Source of the DNA: Pseudohongiella sp.
GTDB lineage: Bacteria > Pseudomonadota > Gammaproteobacteria > Pseudomonadales > Pseudohongiellaceae
Length of the DNA: 64,000 nucleotides
Direction: 5' to 3'
NCBI GenBank assembly: GCA_030651695.1
Contig: JAUSCD010000022.1
Coordinates: forward strand, 1 to 64,000
Below are positions 30,598 to 38,465 of the stretch, in pieces. The position numbers and the translations under genes were made by a program. Position 1 is the first letter of the stretch, and each line of letters starts with the position of its first letter. The notes below the pieces were generated by a model that made no database searches, was not told where the DNA came from, and saw only the letters and a list, made by a program, of their open reading frames with translations.

Positions 30598-32343
30598 ATG
30601 GATATTTTTCTGAAACTCGGATGGTATTTCCGTGCCAAATGGCGTCGTTATGTCTTGGCGGGTGTACTGCTGATTGCTGTGGATGTACTGGAGCTCACCA
30701 TTCCCTGGCTGGTGGGTCGTCTGATTGACGAGGTGCTGGCACAAAGTCTTACTACTCAAAGCCTTACGCAGTATGTGGTGGCTGTGCTGGTATTGGGTGT
30801 GCTGATTTACATCATGCGGTTTTTGTGGCGCCTGTTTCTGTTCAGCGCCTCATTCCAGCTCGCCGAGCTGCTCAGACAGCAGGTCTATCGTCATATGACG
30901 CTGATGGCCCCGGGGTTCTATAACAAGCACCGCACCGGTGACCTGATGGCGCGCGCAACCAATGACGTCACTGCAGTTGAAATGACAGCGGGTGAAGGCG
31001 TTTTGTCGGGGCTCGATGGCGTGGTCACGGGTGTGCTGGTGCTGGTGGTCATGATGGTGTTCATCAGCTGGGAGCTGACACTGGTGGCTTTGTTGCCATT
31101 TCCGCTCATGGCCTGGTTTTTCTACATCATCGGCACGCGGCTTCACGATGGCTTCCGTGACGCCCAGGAGCGTTTCTCGGATCTCAATGACAAGGTCCAG
31201 GAATCAGTGTCCGGTATCCGGATGATTCGTGCCTTTGGTCGTGAAGTGCGAGAAGACGCCGACTTCATGCAAGTGGCTGATCGTGCTGCAGAAGCCAATA
31301 TGCGCGTGGCGGCGACCGACTCGCTTTATGATCCGGCTATCTTTATCACAGTAGGCGTATCGTTTCTGCTGTCCATTGCCATGGGCGCCTGGCTGATAGA
31401 GCAGGGCAGTCTGACACTTGGGCAGCTGACCAGTTTCACCATGTATCTGGGTTATCTGATCTGGCCGATGTTTGCTTATGGCTGGCTGTTGAATCTGGTG
31501 GAGCGTGGCAGCGCAGCTTACACGCGCATCAACGCCCTGCTTGAAGCACGCTCACCGGTAGTGGATAGCGGTCAGCTGTTATCCGCGGTGAATCACGACA
31601 TTCATTGGGATATTGCGGAATTTACTTATCCCGGTGCCGGCTCGCCGGCGCTGTCCAACGTGTCACTGCATGTTCCACAGGGCAATCTGCTCGGCATTGT
31701 TGGTGCGACCGGGGCGGGCAAGTCCACTCTGATCAACCTGCTGCTGCGCTACTACGACCACGACCAGGTACGCATAGAGCTGGGTGGGCACCCTGTGCAG
31801 GATTTCACTCTTCAGGCGCTGCGCAGCATGATTGCGGTGGTGCCGCAGGATGCGTTTTTGTTCACAGCCAGCATTGCGGAAAACATTGCGCTTGGCAGAC
31901 CCGATGCTTCCATAGAAGAAATTCGTGCGGTAGCGCGCCTGGCCTCTGTTGAACAGGACATTCTGCGTTTCCCTGCTGCCTACGACACGCTTGTCGGAGA
32001 GCGCGGCGTGACCTTGTCAGGCGGCCAGAAACAACGCATTGCCATCGCACGCGCGTTGTTGCTCGATGCGCCGATTCTTGTGCTCGATGATGCCTTGTCA
32101 GCGGTGGATGTAAATACCGAGCGCAATATTCTCGCGCATTTAAAACAGGCCCGTCAGGGGCGCACGACAGTGATTCTTTGTCATCGTCTGTCAGCCGTGG
32201 AAGATGCCGATCAGATTGTGGTGATCAGTCATGGCGAAATCAAAGAGCGGGGCACTCATCAAAGTCTGCTGGCAGAAAAAGGCTGGTACGCCCGTATGTT
32301 CAACTATCAAAAACTGGAGCAGGCTGTTGCATCAGGACGATGA
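30598..32343 (+). CDS. mdlA: ABC transporter, fused membrane-ATPase subunit (MdlA-like)
   Basis: A 581-residue half-transporter: six membrane helices (about 1-310) and an ATPase domain with Walker A GATGAGKST, signature LSGGQKQR and Walker B ILVLDDALSAVD, where Asp replaces the catalytic Glu after Walker B. Such a degenerate site is common in one half of heterodimeric exporters such as MdlAB/TM287-288. Its partner overlaps its 3' end. ATG 30598 is used; an upstream ATG at 30535 would add a non-homologous segment. Likely exports peptides, lipids or drugs; substrate unknown. Confidence 0.9.
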   Translation: MDIFLKLGWYFRAKWRRYVLAGVLLIAVDVLELTIPWLVGRLIDEVLAQSLTTQSLTQYVVAVLVLGVLIYIMRFLWRLFLFSASFQLAELLRQQVYRHMTLMAPGFYNKHRTGDLMARATNDVTAVEMTAGEGVLSGLDGVVTGVLVLVVMMVFISWELTLVALLPFPLMAWFFYIIGTRLHDGFRDAQERFSDLNDKVQESVSGIRMIRAFGREVREDADFMQVADRAAEANMRVAATDSLYDPAIFITVGVSFLLSIAMGAWLIEQGSLTLGQLTSFTMYLGYLIWPMFAYGWLLNLVERGSAAYTRINALLEARSPVVDSGQLLSAVNHDIHWDIAEFTYPGAGSPALSNVSLHVPQGNLLGIVGATGAGKSTLINLLLRYYDHDQVRIELGGHPVQDFTLQALRSMIAVVPQDAFLFTASIAENIALGRPDASIEEIRAVARLASVEQDILRFPAAYDTLVGERGVTLSGGQKQRIAIARALLLDAPILVLDDALSAVDVNTERNILAHLKQARQGRTTVILCHRLSAVEDADQIVVISHGEIKERGTHQSLLAEKGWYARMFNYQKLEQAVASGR

Positions 32344-34090
32344 ATTACCAAGACGCGTAGACCGTCGCTCCCTGAGGCGGCTGCTCCGGTACGCATTGGC
32401 TTATCCGCGACTTTTAAAACAGGCAGCCGTGCTGCTGATTCTGAGTACTCTTGGCCAGGTGCTTGGTCCGGTGCTGGTCAAGGTTTTCCTGGATGACTAC
32501 GTCACTCAGGGGCACTATCCTGCGCGCGATCTGATTTTTCTGGCGGTGGCTTATGCCGGACTTTACGGCCTGTCTGCATGGGCCGGATACTGGCAGGCAA
32601 TGCGTTTGAATGACGTTGCATTCTCTGTCGTACGCAGTATTCGGGCACAAGTATTCAGTACCGTGGTTCGCAAACCGCTCTCGTATTTTGATCACCGCCC
32701 GACTGGTAAACTGGTGTCGCGTATCACGAACGACACCGAGGCAATCAAAGATCTTTTTCTGCATGTGGTAGCAACATTTGCGCAGGGCATAGTGCTGATT
32801 GTTGCGATATTTATTGCCATGGCGCTGCTGGACATACGCCTGATGCTGGTGTGTCTGGTCATCATGCCGGTGATGATTGTAGTGATGATCAATTATCAGC
32901 GATTGAGTGCGCCCCGTTACCACAAAGCGCGCAGTATTCTGAGTCAGATCAACGCCACGATGAGCGAATCGATTCAGGGTATGAAAATTATCCAGCTGAT
33001 GAATCAGCAGAAACGTTTTCATCAGCGTTTCACTGATACCAGCCAAAGCCATTTTGCTGCACGGATGACCAATCTCAAGCTGGATGCCATATTGCTGCGC
33101 CCGATGCCCGATCTGCTGCGTACCATGACATTGGCAGGTGTGCTGTTTTATTTTGGCTCGCAATCGATGACAACAGCTGTCGAGATTGGTGTGATCTATG
33201 CGTTTATCAACTACCTGTCACGTATCACTGAACCGGTGATGCAGATGACACAACGCCTGAGCATGTTGCAGCAGGCCGTGGTTGCCGGCGAGCGGGTTTT
33301 TGAAATTCTGGATGAAGGCAAGGAAGAGCACAAAAACGCGCGCCAGATGATTGAACAGGGACGTGTTGAGTTCAGGGATGTTTCTTTCAGTTATGACGGT
33401 AAACATCCGGTGTTGAACAATATCAATTTTGTGGTTGAACCGGGTGAGTTCTATGCCGTAGTCGGGCATACCGGCAGTGGCAAAAGTACTTTGATGAGTT
33501 TGTTGATGCGGTTTTATACGCCTCAATCCGGGCAGATACTGCTGGACGGCTGGCAGCTGCATGAGATCGACCAGAACAGTTTGCGCAATCAGGTCGGCGT
33601 GGTGATGCAGGATCCGTTTATCACCACGGGCAGTGTACGCGACAATATTTGTCTGGGTCAGGTAATGAGTGATGAGCAGATTGTGCGCGCGGCCAAACAG
33701 GCGCAGCTGCATGAATTTGTGATGAGTCTGCCTGACGCTTACAACACGATGATGGATGAGCGAGGCGGCAATTTTTCAACCGGGCAGCGTCAGCTTTTGT
33801 CGTTGGCGCGCACGCTGGCGCATGATCCGATGATTCTGATTCTGGATGAGGCAACTGCGAATATTGATAGTCATACTGAGGCGGTGATTCAGTCGGCGTT
33901 GATGCAGCTTAAGGGTAAAACCAGCATCATCGCGATTGCGCATCGGTTGAGTACGATCACCTCTGCTGATCAGATACTGGTTTTGCATCAGGGGGAGATT
34001 GCGCAGCGGGGGACGCATCAGGGTTTGCTTGGGCATGAGGGGTTGTATCGGAATATGTATTTGTTGCAGCAGAGTCGGGGTGATGGGTGA
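32327..34090 (+). CDS. mdlB: ABC transporter, fused membrane-ATPase subunit (MdlB-like)
   Basis: A 587-residue partner of the preceding gene with six membrane helices and an ATPase domain: Walker A GHTGSGKST, signature FSTGQRQL (a variant of LSGGQ) and Walker B ILILDEATANID with the catalytic Glu present. One degenerate and one canonical ATP site is the pattern of heterodimeric exporters. No ATG fits the N-terminus; TTG 32327, 7 nt after GGAG at 32316-32319, gives the best start and overlaps mdlA by 17 nt. An ATG at 32231 in frame would overlap mdlA by more than 100 nt. Confidence 0.88.
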   Translation: MHQDDELPRRVDRRSLRRLLRYALAYPRLLKQAAVLLILSTLGQVLGPVLVKVFLDDYVTQGHYPARDLIFLAVAYAGLYGLSAWAGYWQAMRLNDVAFSVVRSIRAQVFSTVVRKPLSYFDHRPTGKLVSRITNDTEAIKDLFLHVVATFAQGIVLIVAIFIAMALLDIRLMLVCLVIMPVMIVVMINYQRLSAPRYHKARSILSQINATMSESIQGMKIIQLMNQQKRFHQRFTDTSQSHFAARMTNLKLDAILLRPMPDLLRTMTLAGVLFYFGSQSMTTAVEIGVIYAFINYLSRITEPVMQMTQRLSMLQQAVVAGERVFEILDEGKEEHKNARQMIEQGRVEFRDVSFSYDGKHPVLNNINFVVEPGEFYAVVGHTGSGKSTLMSLLMRFYTPQSGQILLDGWQLHEIDQNSLRNQVGVVMQDPFITTGSVRDNICLGQVMSDEQIVRAAKQAQLHEFVMSLPDAYNTMMDERGGNFSTGQRQLLSLARTLAHDPMILILDEATANIDSHTEAVIQSALMQLKGKTSIIAIAHRLSTITSADQILVLHQGEIAQRGTHQGLLGHEGLYRNMYLLQQSRGDG

Positions 34091-34123
34091 TTTGTTGTGC
34101 TACCTGAATTTTTGGCTGTGGCC

Positions 34124-34304
34124 GCAGCAGGAGCAGGGCGCAGTGCAAGACAGGCCGCATCCTCTGACACGCCGACCGGAGCTGCGCAACTCAACGTCGC
34201 GGCTGCGCCGCTCCGGATTCGAACAGTGCTCGCTCTTTTTCGGTCGGCGTGTCAGAGGATAAGCGCGGCCTGATTGGTCTTGCACTGCACCCAGCTCCTG
34301 CTGC
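34124..34304 (+). repeat. Structured element E1 (181 nt), first of an inverted pair
   Basis: The ends pair in a 28-29 bp outer stem with two mismatches (GCAGCAGGAGC... with ...GCTCCTGCTGC), followed by a GGCCGC/GCGGCC helix with asymmetric unpaired bases. A perfect 20-bp stem follows (34159-34178 with 34241-34260). Inside lies a 49-nt core at 34183-34231 (TGCGCAACTCAAC..., including hairpin GCGGC-TGC-GCCGC). A second copy, E2, with the same length and layout lies at 35414-35594 on the other strand. It lies between mdlB and the 3' end of the DUF3626 gene. No T-tract follows, so it is not a simple terminator. Confidence 0.85.
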
Positions 34305-34384
34305 TCACTTCGAATTTATTGATGTGGAGTGCGCAGGTGTCACACAATCTGTTGATGGTGGTTGGAGTGGGTCCGGGTGCAGTC

Positions 34385-35242
34385 CTATTCTGCGTGCGCC
34401 AGATTGAGGTTTCCGAATTTGGCGAGGTAGTGCCACACTTTTTTCAGATCCTGGGCATCGTGTAACTGCTGATTTACGGCAGCGCCTATCATGAGCGGCG
34501 TAATAATTCCGTTCTCGGCAATATCATGGGCCAATGCGATGTATTGCTGGCCGCGATAGTTCGCGTAATGGTTGAGGGCAGACACCCGAATTGAGAACCC
34601 TTTGTGCCACTCCACGGTACATCCCAGAAGCGCGGCAGCCTTTTCAACTTCCGTACCTTTGTAGCAGGGGTCCAGTACCAGTTTGTCGACGTCAGACGCG
34701 ATCGCGATGCTGCCGTGTATATGGGCTTCGATGTAGTGGTCCAATGCGTCCGGTTCATCGGCATCTGCCAGGTCAATCAGATGCTGTATGGCGCCGGCAT
34801 ACCCGTATTCGCGCGGTCCCAGCCAGCTTTCGGGATAACAGAATGTGGTTCTGTCTAGAACATGGCTTTTGAGTGTGAAGAATGACGACCCGAATCTGGG
34901 CGATCCGCCGGCGCCATGTCTGCGATGATTTAATGCGCCATACTTTGGCCGTTCACTCGCGGGAGCATCATCATACAGGCCATTGAACGCTGCACTTTCC
35001 CAGTTCCATCGGTCGCCACCAGCAAATGCCGAAACGCCACCATTGCCCGTGCCCGTCTCAAACTGCGAACGCAGATACCCATCACTTGCAATCCTGCTCA
35101 AAACCGGCTGCCCGTCACGCGTCAATCTGTCCGGATGAAAATTGACCGTAACTTCCAAAGCACTCGCGTCAGGGCAAAGTTCCCCATGACATCGAAAACG
35201 CTCAAGAGCTTTCTGTTGGATCGGGCTCAGTGTGTTTTTCAT
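34385..35242 (-). CDS. DUF3626 domain protein
   Basis: A 285-residue soluble protein. Conserved-looking stretches VTVNFHPDRLTRDGQPVL, SQFETGTGNGG, RPKYGALNHRRHGAGGSPRF and DRTTFCYPES match DUF3626, a family of unknown function. The several invariant-looking polar residues (HPDR, QFETG, RPKYGAL, GGSPRFG) suggest an enzyme. No signal peptide or membrane segment. No clear ribosome site precedes the ATG at 35242. It is bracketed by the inverted structured elements E1 and E2, the only gene between them, as though carried as cargo. Confidence 0.75.
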   Translation of the reverse strand: MKNTLSPIQQKALERFRCHGELCPDASALEVTVNFHPDRLTRDGQPVLSRIASDGYLRSQFETGTGNGGVSAFAGGDRWNWESAAFNGLYDDAPASERPKYGALNHRRHGAGGSPRFGSSFFTLKSHVLDRTTFCYPESWLGPREYGYAGAIQHLIDLADADEPDALDHYIEAHIHGSIAIASDVDKLVLDPCYKGTEVEKAAALLGCTVEWHKGFSIRVSALNHYANYRGQQYIALAHDIAENGIITPLMIGAAVNQQLHDAQDLKKVWHYLAKFGNLNLAHAE

Positions 35243-35413
35243 ACCGTCAGAGAATTCATGCTCGTCTCGGGACTCAGGTCACAATTGGAATGACGAATGG
35301 TAAGTCCACAGTCATGAATTTAGCAACGATGCGCAGAACAACCCGGACACTCCAGACCAGGCTCAAGTGTAAGCCGAGCCCGATCCCAACCACCACACCC
35401 AAATTCAGCGTGA
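35243..35413. other. Spacer between DUF3626 start and element E2
   Basis: No coding frame of substance is seen. If the DUF3626 gene has its own promoter it should lie here or in E2; I find no good -35/-10 pair. Confidence 0.4.
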
Positions 35414-35594
35414 GCGACGGGCGGGCATGGCAGTGCCGGACCAATAAGGCCGCGTTTATCTTCTGTGTCGCCGCCCGATCAAGCGGGAGCACTGTGCGAA
35501 TCCTGAGCGGCGTAGCCGCGAAGTTGAGTTGCGCACCGCCGGGCGGCGACACAGAAGATGCGGCCGGTCCGGCACTGCCATGCCCGCCCGTCGC
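35414..35594 (-). repeat. Structured element E2 (181 nt), second of an inverted pair
   Basis: The outer stem is a perfect 29-bp pairing (35414-35442 with 35566-35594, GCGACGGGCGGGCATGGC...). Next comes the GGCCGC/GCGGCC helix with the same asymmetric bulges as E1, then a perfect 20-bp stem (35458-35477 with 35540-35559). The 49-nt core at 35487-35535 matches the E1 core at 45 of 49 positions when read on the minus strand. The 20-bp stem differs from that of E1 at five pairs, every one compensated on the other side. It lies 172 nt upstream of the DUF3626 start, on the same strand as that gene when aligned to E1. Confidence 0.85.
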
Positions 35595-35638
35595 GGCCCC
35601 ACTGATTAGAAAACCACCGCACCGCCTTTCCATCAGAC

Positions 35639-35673
35639 AAAAAAAAGACCCATCCGTTCCCAGACAGGCCTTT
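35639..35673 (-). terminator. Rho-independent terminator of ppdK
   Basis: Read on the minus strand, AAAGGCCTGTC pairs with GATGGGTCTTT (several G-U pairs) around an 8-nt loop and runs into eight T's. It lies about 33 nt after the ppdK stop. Confidence 0.75.
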
Positions 35674-35705
35674 CTCATCACATCTGACTCACAACTATCC
35701 TGATA

Positions 35706-38465
35706 TCACTCAGCAGAACGCAAAGCCGCCTGCGCCGCAGCCAGGCGCGCAATCGGCACCCGGGGCGGAGAACAGCTCACATAATGCAGCCCCAGCTTAT
35801 GACAGAAATCGATAGAATCAGGATCACCCGCGTGCTCACCACAGATCCCCAACTTCAGATCCTTACGCGTCTTCAGACCATTCTCCACCGCAAACTGCAT
35901 CAATTTACCCACACCCGTCTTATCCAGACTCGCAAACGGGTTCTTGTTGTAGATTTCTTTCTGCTGATACTGATCATAGAACATACCCATATCATCGCGG
36001 CTCAGGCCCAGGGTCGTCTGCGTCAGGTCATTGGTGCCGAAGCTGAAGAACTCTGCAACCTCTGCAATCTCATCCGCAGTAATAGCGGCACGTGGCACTT
36101 CTACCATGGTGCCAACCAGGTACTTGATGGTGACACCTTTCTTCTTCATCACTTCATCAGCCATGCGGCGCACGATATTCAGCTGGTCGGCGAGTTCTGC
36201 TTTGAAGCCCACCAGCGGGATCATGATCTCAGGGTGAACATCAACAGGGTTCTTGCTCTTCATCACTTCCGCAGCCGCTTCAAAAATGGCCTGCGCCTGC
36301 ATTTCTGTGATTTCCGGATACAGGATGCCGAGACGGCAGCCGCGGCAACCCAGCATCGGGTTTTCTTCGTGCAAGGCTTTAATTCGATCGATCACAAATT
36401 CCAGTGGTAAACCAAGTTTGTCTGCAAGCTGACGACGCACCGCATCATCCTGCGGCAGGAATTCGTGCAAGGGTGGATCCAGCAGGCGGATGGTTACCGG
36501 GCGACCGGCCATGGCTCTGAACAATCCAACAAAGTCTTTGCGCTGCATTGGCAGCAGTTTTTTCAACGCTTCACGACGTTGTACCACGTCGACTGCCAGA
36601 ATCATCTGACGCATGTCGTCAATGCGGCTGCCTTCAAAGAACATGTGTTCCGTGCGGCACAGACCGATACCTTCTGCGCCGTAAGCCACTGCCTGCTGAG
36701 CCATCGACGGGGTGTCGGCATTGGTGCGGATGCGCAGTTTGCGGTGTTTATCTGACCATTCCATGACGGTGTTGAAGAGCTCATAGGTATAGCTCTCTTC
36801 CGGCTTCATGTGACCTTCGAGCACGCGTTTGACTTCAGAGTCTGCGCTCTCTATCAGGCCTTTATAAACGTTGCCGGTAGTTCCGTTGATGGAGATGTAA
36901 TCGCCTTCGCGCAGGGTAATACCATTGGCGGTCAGTGTCTTTCTTTCGTAATTGATGGTGATATCGCCGGCGCCACAGATACACACTTTGCCGAGCTGAC
37001 GCGCGACCAGAGCCGCGTGTGATGAGACGCCACCGCGTGTAGTCAGAATACCTTGCGAGTTCAGCATGCCCTTCAGATCTTCCGGAGAAGTTTCTGAGCG
37101 GCACAGGATCACTTTATTGCCTTTACGCGCTTCCACTTCTGCCTGCGCAGCGGTGAATGCGATGCGCCCAGTAGCAGCGCCGGGGCCTGCGGGCAGGCCT
37201 TTGCAGATCAGCTGGGCTTCTTTCTGTGCCTTGATGTCAAACACCGGCACCAGCAGCGAGTCGATAGACTCTGCAGGGATTTTCAGCAGCGCAGTTTTCT
37301 GGTCAATCAGCTTCTCGCGGTTGAGTTCAACAGCAATCCGGATCGCAGCCAGACCAGTGCGTTTGCCATTGCGGGTCTGCAGAATAAACAGACGACCGCC
37401 TTCAATGGTGAATTCAAAGTCCTGCATGTCCTTGAAGTGTTTTTCAAGACGCGCGCGCACTTTCTCCAGATCGGCAAAATTCTTCGGCAGTTCTTTTTCC
37501 ATGGCCGCGATGGGCTTGGGCGTACGCACGCCTGCAACAACATCCTCGCCCTGGGCGTTGGTGAGGTACTCACCGTAGAACACTTTTTCGCCGGTGGCCG
37601 GGTCGCGCGTAAACGCAACACCTGTGCCGCTGTCATCGCCGGCATTACCAAACACCATGGATTGAATATTCACCGCTGTGCCCCACTCCGCAGGAATGCC
37701 GTACTGCTGGCGGTAGAGGATTGCGCGATCATTTTTCCATGATCCAAATACTGCGCCGACAGCACCCCACAGTTGCTCGTAAACATCCTGCGGAAAGCTC
37801 TTGCCGGCGGTTCTGTTGATCAGCAGTTTGTAGCGATTGACCAGTTCGCGCAGCTCGTCTGCGGTGAGCTCATTATCCAGCTCTTTGCCCAGTGTGTGCT
37901 TCATTTCATCCAGCAGGGCGTGGAAGGGGTCTTCAGACTCCTCGTCAGCCGCCTGGACGCCCATGACAACATCACCATACATCTGGATAAAACGGCGGTA
38001 GCAGTCCCATGCAAAACGCGGGTTGCCGGAAATATTCGCCAGGCCTTCAACTGTCTGGTCGTTCAGGCCAAGATTGAGGATGGTATCCATCATGCCCGGC
38101 ATGGAGTCACGGGCGCCAGAGCGCACGGATACCAGCAGAGGGTTGTCACGGCTGCCAAACTCGCGCCCCATTTGTTCTTCCACCAGCCTGATAGCCTGCT
38201 GGACATCTTTTGCCAGTGACTTCGGATAACTGCGGTCATGGTCGTAAAAATATGTGCAGACTTCCGTGCTGATGGTGAACCCGGGAGGAACTGGCAGGCC
38301 TATGGCCGCCATCTCCGCCAGATTGGCGCCTTTGCCGCCCAACAGCGCGCGCATGGTGGCATTACCATCAGTTTGACGGCCGAAGTTGTATACATACTTA
38401 GCGGATTTCGGGTTTGAGGCTTTGCTGGTATCGGATTTTTGATTCATGGTTCCCGGGTTCTTCAT
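35706..38465 (-). CDS. ppdK: Pyruvate, phosphate dikinase
   Basis: A 919-residue enzyme interconverting pyruvate + ATP + phosphate with PEP + AMP + pyrophosphate. The N-terminal ATP-grasp domain begins with YNFGRQTDG and [20 protein letters not shown]. The swivelling phospho-His domain has [19 protein letters not shown]. The C-terminal PEP/pyruvate barrel contains [26 protein letters not shown] and a final [23 protein letters not shown]. Length and motifs are complete. A second in-frame ATG at 38447 (MNQKSD) could be the true start. It may supply PEP for gluconeogenesis on C3/C4 substrates. A 15-nt palindrome lies about 150 nt upstream. Confidence 0.95.

Follow-up and report, generated by a model that had tools for sequence, protein, structure and literature searches.

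The stretch of DNA analysed here (the window, 64,000 nucleotides of a Pseudohongiella genome designated G000) carries two structured elements of equal length, E1 and E2, placed in inverted orientation around a DUF3626 gene, and the question raised by this locus is what such a pair represents: a functional folded RNA, a DNA hairpin recognised as a single strand, or the ends of a unit that carries a gene. The relevant features, with their positions in the window, are as follows.

32231-34090, plus strand: ABC transporter gene, left neighbour (PF00664, PF00005).
34124-34304, plus strand: E1, nested hairpin of 181 nt, 33 nt 3' of the ABC transporter stop and on the same strand.
34124-34151, plus strand: E1 outer arm, 5' side, pairing with 34277-34304 at 93%.
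34153-34158, plus strand: E1 GGCCGC helix, 5' side; its 3' side, GCGGCC, at 34265-34270.
34159-34178, plus strand: E1 20-bp stem, 5' side; its 3' side at 34241-34260.
34188-34230, plus strand: E1 conserved core, AACTC..ACAGTGCT.
34261-34264, plus strand: E1 AAGC bulge.
34271-34275, plus strand: E1 TGATT bulge, directly after GCGGCC.
34277-34304, plus strand: E1 outer arm, 3' side.
34385-35242, minus strand: DUF3626 gene between E1 and E2 (PF12294, E 3.4e-59).
35414-35594, minus strand: E2, nested hairpin of 181 nt, 111 nt past the PPDK stop and on the same strand.
35488-35530, minus strand: E2 conserved core.
35540-35559, minus strand: E2 20-bp stem, 5' side on the minus strand; its 3' side at 35458-35477.
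35706-38465, minus strand: PPDK gene, right neighbour (PF01326, PF02896).

The architecture given in a preliminary description of this DNA was largely confirmed. Both elements lie at the positions assigned to them and have the same length of 181 nt, although the likeness between them continues for a few nucleotides past both sides (201 nt at 75%). Neither 20-bp stem contains a mismatch, and the five pairs that differ between E1 and E2 are all compensated; the outer stems, which had been said to keep pairing, do so over 28 nt at 93% in E1 and over 29 nt at 100% in E2; and the 49-nt core, from TGCGCAACTC to GTGCTC, is identical at 45 of 49 positions (counted by eye). The bulge described as TKATT was correct, but that described as ATAARC is in fact AARC, the AT being part of the 20-bp stem. 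Predicted folding energies were -127.8 kcal/mol for E1 and -143.7 kcal/mol for E2 (z = -12.4 and -14.4), and none of 200 shuffles gave as good a fold. The core pattern derived from the copies described below matched the window twice, at E1 and at E2, with 0.00 matches expected.

A profile search of regions placed the element at 28 sites in its own genome (3.86 Mb, 35 contigs), some of them partial, degenerate or cut by contig ends, while a search with E1 itself gave 32 matches, a number that includes the opposite strand of E1 and some very weak matches. E1 also matched in all 14 of the other Pseudohongiella genomes searched, and in none of 41 genomes of other genera at E ≤0.001. The pair is thus not unique, and the search for further copies in this and related genomes that had been proposed at the outset was successful. 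Among 23 near-full copies from the own genome, 39 of 65 pairs changed on both sides and yet stayed paired; 96.8% of cells were paired compared to 33-45% in slid controls, and no shuffle reached the covariation score, in a test favoured by the structure having been derived from that same alignment. Only about 48 of the 1,485 cells were unpaired and 10 were wobble pairs, with few intermediates, so the variation was almost wholly compensated. Conservation was highest in the GGCCGC/GCGGCC helix, in the two bulges (TGATT and AARC) and in the core loop. The proposal that structure is maintained while the stems drift and the unpaired letters are retained, which had been based on two copies, was therefore upheld by the covariation of the stems in the 23 copies and by the conserved bulges.

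A smaller core, S-AACTC-R[hairpin]Y-TCRNACART-S', proved to be common to Pseudohongiella and Betaproteobacteria (Thauera, Niveibacterium, Gallionella and Burkholderiales). Its helix pairs GGC-[U]-G-[C]-G-S with S'-C-[U]-C-G-C-C, followed by A-[A]-C-U with A-G-U, and R-Y closes an inner hairpin whose length and sequence vary widely. The pattern AACTCRNYNTC-N10..20-GNNYTCRNACARTSCT was present in at least 111 stretches in named genomes, a few of which are chance matches; Thauera, Niveibacterium, Uliginosibacterium, Gallionella and Burkholderiales were the taxa among the matches listed. With redundant loci counted, S and S' were complementary in 202 and R and Y in 207 of the 208 matches to the pattern; after deduplication the figures were 58 and 62 of 63, respectively. 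The pattern allows two letters for each of S', R and Y and leaves S free. An alignment (A1) was made of 57 of the 63 deduplicated rows, leaving out L081, L141, L151, L162 and L181, which lack the closing helix and were taken as chance matches, and L023, a broken copy. In it 92.7% of cells were paired compared to 31-49% when slid, and cells with a double change numbered 97 against 31.6 in shuffles. Two of the five measures fell within the range of the shuffles: pairs with a double change (7 against 6.0; 134 of 500 shuffles) and further pair types (17 against 14.3; 32 of 500 shuffles); in addition, the named pair 18/46 failed in 27 of the 57 rows.

The distribution of the core is patchy and not that of a housekeeping element. 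A covariance model, searched with filters that lose weak matches, detected the core at E ≤1e-4 in 14 of the 369 genomes sampled from the class, a count that includes the own genome. At E ≤0.01, copies numbered 11 in G008, 15 in G010, 49 in Thauera 2A1, 28 in Niveibacterium 24ML and 7 in a Gallionella MAG. Orthologous copies are common to different species (the trpF/trpB site; L042 and L043), indicating that part of this pattern is inherited. A plasmid- or phage-borne element was rejected, as blastn gave no match for E1 to plasmid or phage sequences, nor for a Thauera copy to plasmids; the single match of the core pattern in viral contigs (L181) was dropped as chance, being without the closing helix. 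The expectation of a far larger class with a short loop also failed, since that pattern matched only 3 of the 369 genomes. Separately, the core with a matching closing helix was seen in MAGs labelled Parcubacteria and Bacteroidales (L082 and L105), through either a wider spread or mis-binning, and at L062:6411-6471 there is a collapsed element in which the arms and the GGCCGC base are left and the inner stem and core are lost.

A scan with Rfam gave nothing over the gathering threshold in the window at 33900-35800 or in 10 other loci, and a known Rfam RNA was rejected on this basis. Likewise, no description of the hairpin family was found in the open-access literature, supplements being outside that scope. 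The earlier remark that no described family with this core was known was consistent with both results. The E1/E2 hairpins are giant hairpin repeats organised in doublets, and the family they form is real, widespread and apparently undescribed.

That organisation was seen in 138 copies from six genomes, in which 33 neighbours lay within 700 nt of each other; 30 of these converge, 3 diverge and none point in the same direction, so the inverted pairing noticed around the DUF3626 gene is a recurrent arrangement. Gene calls, made with a simple ORF picker and not taken from an annotation, were available on both sides of 20 distinct doublets; the two flanking genes were co-directional for 11 of these, convergent for 6 and divergent for 3. 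The possibility that doublet convergence is a by-product of convergent flanking genes therefore failed (6 of 20 only), and convergence belongs to the unit and is not forced by gene layout. An alignment of seven Niveibacterium doublets shows them to be part of a larger unit, in which further conserved hairpins lie to the outside of the two core hairpins; the extra hairpins of these larger units in Niveibacterium 24ML (L379-L387) include a CTTTCTTTG..CAAAGAAAG stem. The elements also have a sharp edge. Exact AATCCGG forms the left end of 19 of 38 elements with a 34-nt core (the Thauera type), and mean pairwise identity is 1.0 at AATCCGG and 0.22-0.43 at 9-30 nt farther out; a weak, partly conserved GTGC precedes AATCCGG, and beyond it the sequence is mostly unrelated.

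To determine which strand folds, we counted isolated arm mismatches, those with a paired base on either side, as read on the strand that is sense for E1. In 243 distinct, globally deduplicated elements there were 96 A.C against 35 G.T mismatches, with the same direction in the 71 elements that have the TGATT base (43:18) and the 172 that do not (53:17), and in a less strictly deduplicated count (98:41, made up of 49:22 and 49:19); these counts rest on related, non-independent sequences. The small core helix of the own copies was reversed, with 6 G.T and 3 A.C. As an A.C on one strand is a G.T on the other, the bias suggests that wobble pairs are tolerated on the strand complementary to the E1 sense. 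Comparing A.C with G.T per strand is a simple test for the folded strand of any conserved palindrome.

This result bears most directly on the alternative that the sense strand acts as a functional structured RNA, a 3'-UTR element or small RNA serving mRNA stability, termination or regulation. Such an RNA would explain the strong folding and covariation, and the position of the elements is as a 3'-UTR RNA predicts: by the same simple gene calls, where an upstream gene was called for a Pseudohongiella element, it lies on the element's own strand in 50 of 66 cases, mostly no more than about 125 nt away, and solo elements of the TGATT type lie sense-downstream of a gene in 30 of 35 distinct cases. 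However, the orientation bias is weak in solo elements without the TGATT base (61 same against 40 opposite), and the mismatch bias is the reverse of what selection on a sense-strand RNA should produce. Furthermore, neither E1 nor E2 has a T-run terminator, and a reading as terminator was rejected because the single T-run candidate, at 34420-34435, sits past E1 and is within chance; the high copy number, patchy spread and convergent doublets also suit a repeat family better. An antisense RNA would agree with the wobble bias but not with the position rule. We consider an RNA function unlikely, though it is the main competitor of the favoured reading. Of the two possibilities raised at first, a folded RNA or a single-stranded DNA hairpin, it is the second that is favoured, because of the mismatch bias, the pattern of dispersal and the sharp boundary, with the first the weaker.

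The preliminary description had also proposed a cargo-carrying unit of about 1.47 kb. The junction between the ABC transporter and PPDK genes is variable across the genus. DUF3626 occurs in 3 of 15 genus genomes, only at this locus, with intact elements in two of them: the arrangement in G000 is element, DUF3626, element, and it is likewise in G005, whose contig stops short of the ABC gene. In G004 DUF3626 is retained with both hairpins collapsed to arm remnants. Thus, DUF3626 and the element pair co-occur, which may reflect one event in a lineage. At the same junction, G001 and G002 have a small ORF with a start of the double-glycine type (by eye) inside an inverted pair of a short hairpin family, G011 has one hairpin of that short family, G014 has about 250 bp with another hairpin (by eye) and G009 has an ORF; the other seven genus genomes gave no ABC match in the roughly 1.5 kb beside PPDK. 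The short family, GAACGGCGC..GCGCC-TGATT-GTTC, has the TGATT bulge in common with the base of E1 and E2 and forms its inverted pair at the orthologous locus. It was found at the following positions.

L207, 4418-4439 and 5154-5175: short hairpin family.
L209, 4411-4432 and 5178-5199: short hairpin family.
L210, 1427-1448: short hairpin family.

The small ORF in L207 and L209 begins with a leader-like EQVSGGD and resembles a double-glycine bacteriocin precursor (by eye).

Tabulation of the genes inside the other wide pairs, as had been suggested, gave SfLAP, beta-lactamase-family, flavodoxin-like and DnaJ-domain genes or ORFs with no Pfam match; these are unrelated to each other and there is no common cargo among them. 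Where presence and absence could be compared, G010 has a pair with a 117-aa ORF (1,193 bp) in place of which G008 has 113 bp; the breakpoints are no more than about 20 nt from the outer ends of the two hairpins, and G008 retains some 15-20 nt like the left end. Similar arm remnants were present at the absences in G004 (at both elements), in L323 against L329 and in L407. Inspection by eye of these sites, all of them remnant-bearing, gave no clean empty site and no target duplication, the other evidence that had been looked for, and the remnants indicate losses or replacements, not proven insertions. Hence the cargo-carrying unit is plausible only, given that DUF3626 is in 3 of 15 genomes, that the genes in other pairs are unrelated and that the comparisons yielded no virgin insertion site. 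At sites where E1-type units come and go there is a third hairpin family, one side of which carries GAGCGACGAAAACCTGAGGAGG (L407 reverse strand at about 2090-2160, L343 and L408; by eye).

An enzyme encoded beside the elements was sought by clustering 3,290 neighbour ORFs. The largest clusters, their representatives judged by eye, were ordinary genes: eight ORFs examined by Pfam for seven of these clusters gave TctC, MCP, AidB, ABC transporter, beta-lactamase family, PRAI and PALP, with TctC and MCP on opposite strands of one place, while the ORF for a cluster of 20 loci, possibly repeat-derived, had no Pfam match. No recombinase or transposase family and no autonomous copy was recognised among these largest clusters. 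The alternative that the elements are of the REP or TIR type and, like REPINs and TIRtrons, depend for their movement on a RAYT- or TIRYT-like Y1 (HUH) transposase draws on the bulged hairpins, inverted doublets and intergenic high copy number, which are REP features in published accounts (PMC8266576, PMC6006769, PMC3733652), and on the presence of Y1_Tnp genes in 15 of 15 Pseudohongiella genomes and 11 of 16 other carriers. On the other hand, the remaining 5 of those 16 carriers gave no Y1 match, including G353 with at least 13 copies; one Y1 protein used as a phmmer query had no relative in element loci L001-L181; the Y1 gene lying about 0.5 kb from an element in G201 has its own GGGG-type flanks (by eye); and GTAG is not conserved, being in the 5' base window of 4 of 22 own and 0 of 19 Thauera-type elements. 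Movement by a Y1 enzyme is accordingly quite doubtful. All 15 genus genomes have a Y1-like gene encoding some 330 aa (L191-L205; partial in G004); no element lies within these 3-kb loci, and the gene looks domesticated.

Palindromes can be repaired by template switching, and for this reason compensated stems alone do not prove function. It could be argued, then, that the elements are passive relics that nothing now recognises, with template-switch mutation maintaining the complementarity of their arms; arm-to-arm copying would give the compensated variation with few intermediates, and collapsed copies do exist. However, the bulges and the C.U mismatch would be expected to disappear under template switching, yet these are kept from Gamma- to Betaproteobacteria, and the core loop is retained even where the hairpin within it has been replaced. 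Retention of the bulges, the mismatch and the loop speaks for function more strongly than the compensated stems do, and purely passive palindromes are improbable. Integron-type attC-like sites with DUF3626 as a cassette can be set aside as extremely improbable: attC sites also fold as single strands with extrahelical bases around small genes, and 4 of 15 Pseudohongiella genomes have an integron integrase match above the cut-off (L410-L413; broken or partial in others, including the own genome at G000:C5:6459-7166), but RYYYAAC/GTTRRRY boxes were absent from 23 of 23 own elements in the windows tested, on which ground attC identity was rejected, no core lay within 5 integrase loci, G010 with its 15 copies gave no integrase match, and closely spaced copies form inverted rather than direct pairs.

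What is shown is a set of dispersed, covarying hairpins, often head-to-head, with one conserved internal-loop core across Gamma- and Betaproteobacteria. We consider it slightly more likely than not that E1 and E2 are ends or solo copies of a non-autonomous, REPIN- or MITE-like mobile family that folds as single-stranded DNA. When the DNA becomes single-stranded, for example in replication, the strand complementary to the E1 sense would fold; an enzyme acting in trans would then recognise the extrahelical bases and the AACTC/TCRNACART loop, the conserved bulges being what single-strand recognition would need, and it might cut near the hairpin base and move either one hairpin or a convergent pair together with the intervening DNA. 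E1-DUF3626-E2 would then be a long-spaced unit of about 1.47 kb within a hotspot flanked by the ABC transporter and PPDK genes. A bolder form of this, for which the chances are low, is a new class of single-stranded DNA mobile element in Beta- and Gammaproteobacteria, with giant palindromic ends that have a covarying internal-loop core and an enzyme neither of the Y1-HUH nor of the integron kind that could move a convergent pair with a chromosomal gene. The hairpins constitute a family in several Beta- and Gammaproteobacterial genera, without an Rfam match in the loci scanned or a describing paper in the open-access literature, whose DNA-level covariation signature and consensus can be searched for in any genome, and which offers a concrete test for single-strand recognition beyond the known REP and integron systems.

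Of the known systems, attC sites share with these hairpins a folded single strand with extrahelical bases and differ in their boxes and in the direct, not inverted, order of neighbours. MITEs of the Ypal, ERIC and NEMIS type are non-coding sequences of 70-300 bp with inverted repeats and no internal transposase. The E1/E2 family resembles them as non-coding inverted repeats with no transposase inside, and is set apart from the descriptions of those families by its core, its nested bulged architecture and its head-to-head doublets. Ypal, ERIC and NEMIS are named as bacterial MITEs in the account of TIRYT elements (Di Nocera 2013, PMC3733652), where the terminal inverted repeats of the latter are long, sometimes self-complementary sequences that form repeat families and dimers and flank a Y1 transposase gene, often with GGGGWSAS. 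In being long, inverted and self-complementary, and in forming repeat families and dimers, the E1/E2 elements are like these TIRtron/TIRYT repeats as so described, but none of those examined was seen to flank a Y1 gene. They are unlike both the REP/RAYT and the TIRYT systems in that a Y1 match is absent from 5 of 16 carriers and from beside the elements in L001-L181. REPs, according to two papers (PMC8266576, PMC6006769), are intergenic repeated imperfect palindromes, some needing bulges, that occur singly or as inverted doublets and on which TnpA-REP acts as folded single strands. The likeness to REPs, BIMEs and REPINs so described lies in repeated intergenic folded hairpins with bulges and in inverted doublets (30 of 33 neighbours converge); the difference is that REPs measure 20-50 nt and have a 5' GTAG, whereas the hairpins of the E1/E2 family have no conserved GTAG, are about 100-180 nt long (181 nt in E1 and E2, and more than 50 nt in the other folded copies) and are nested around an internal-loop core.
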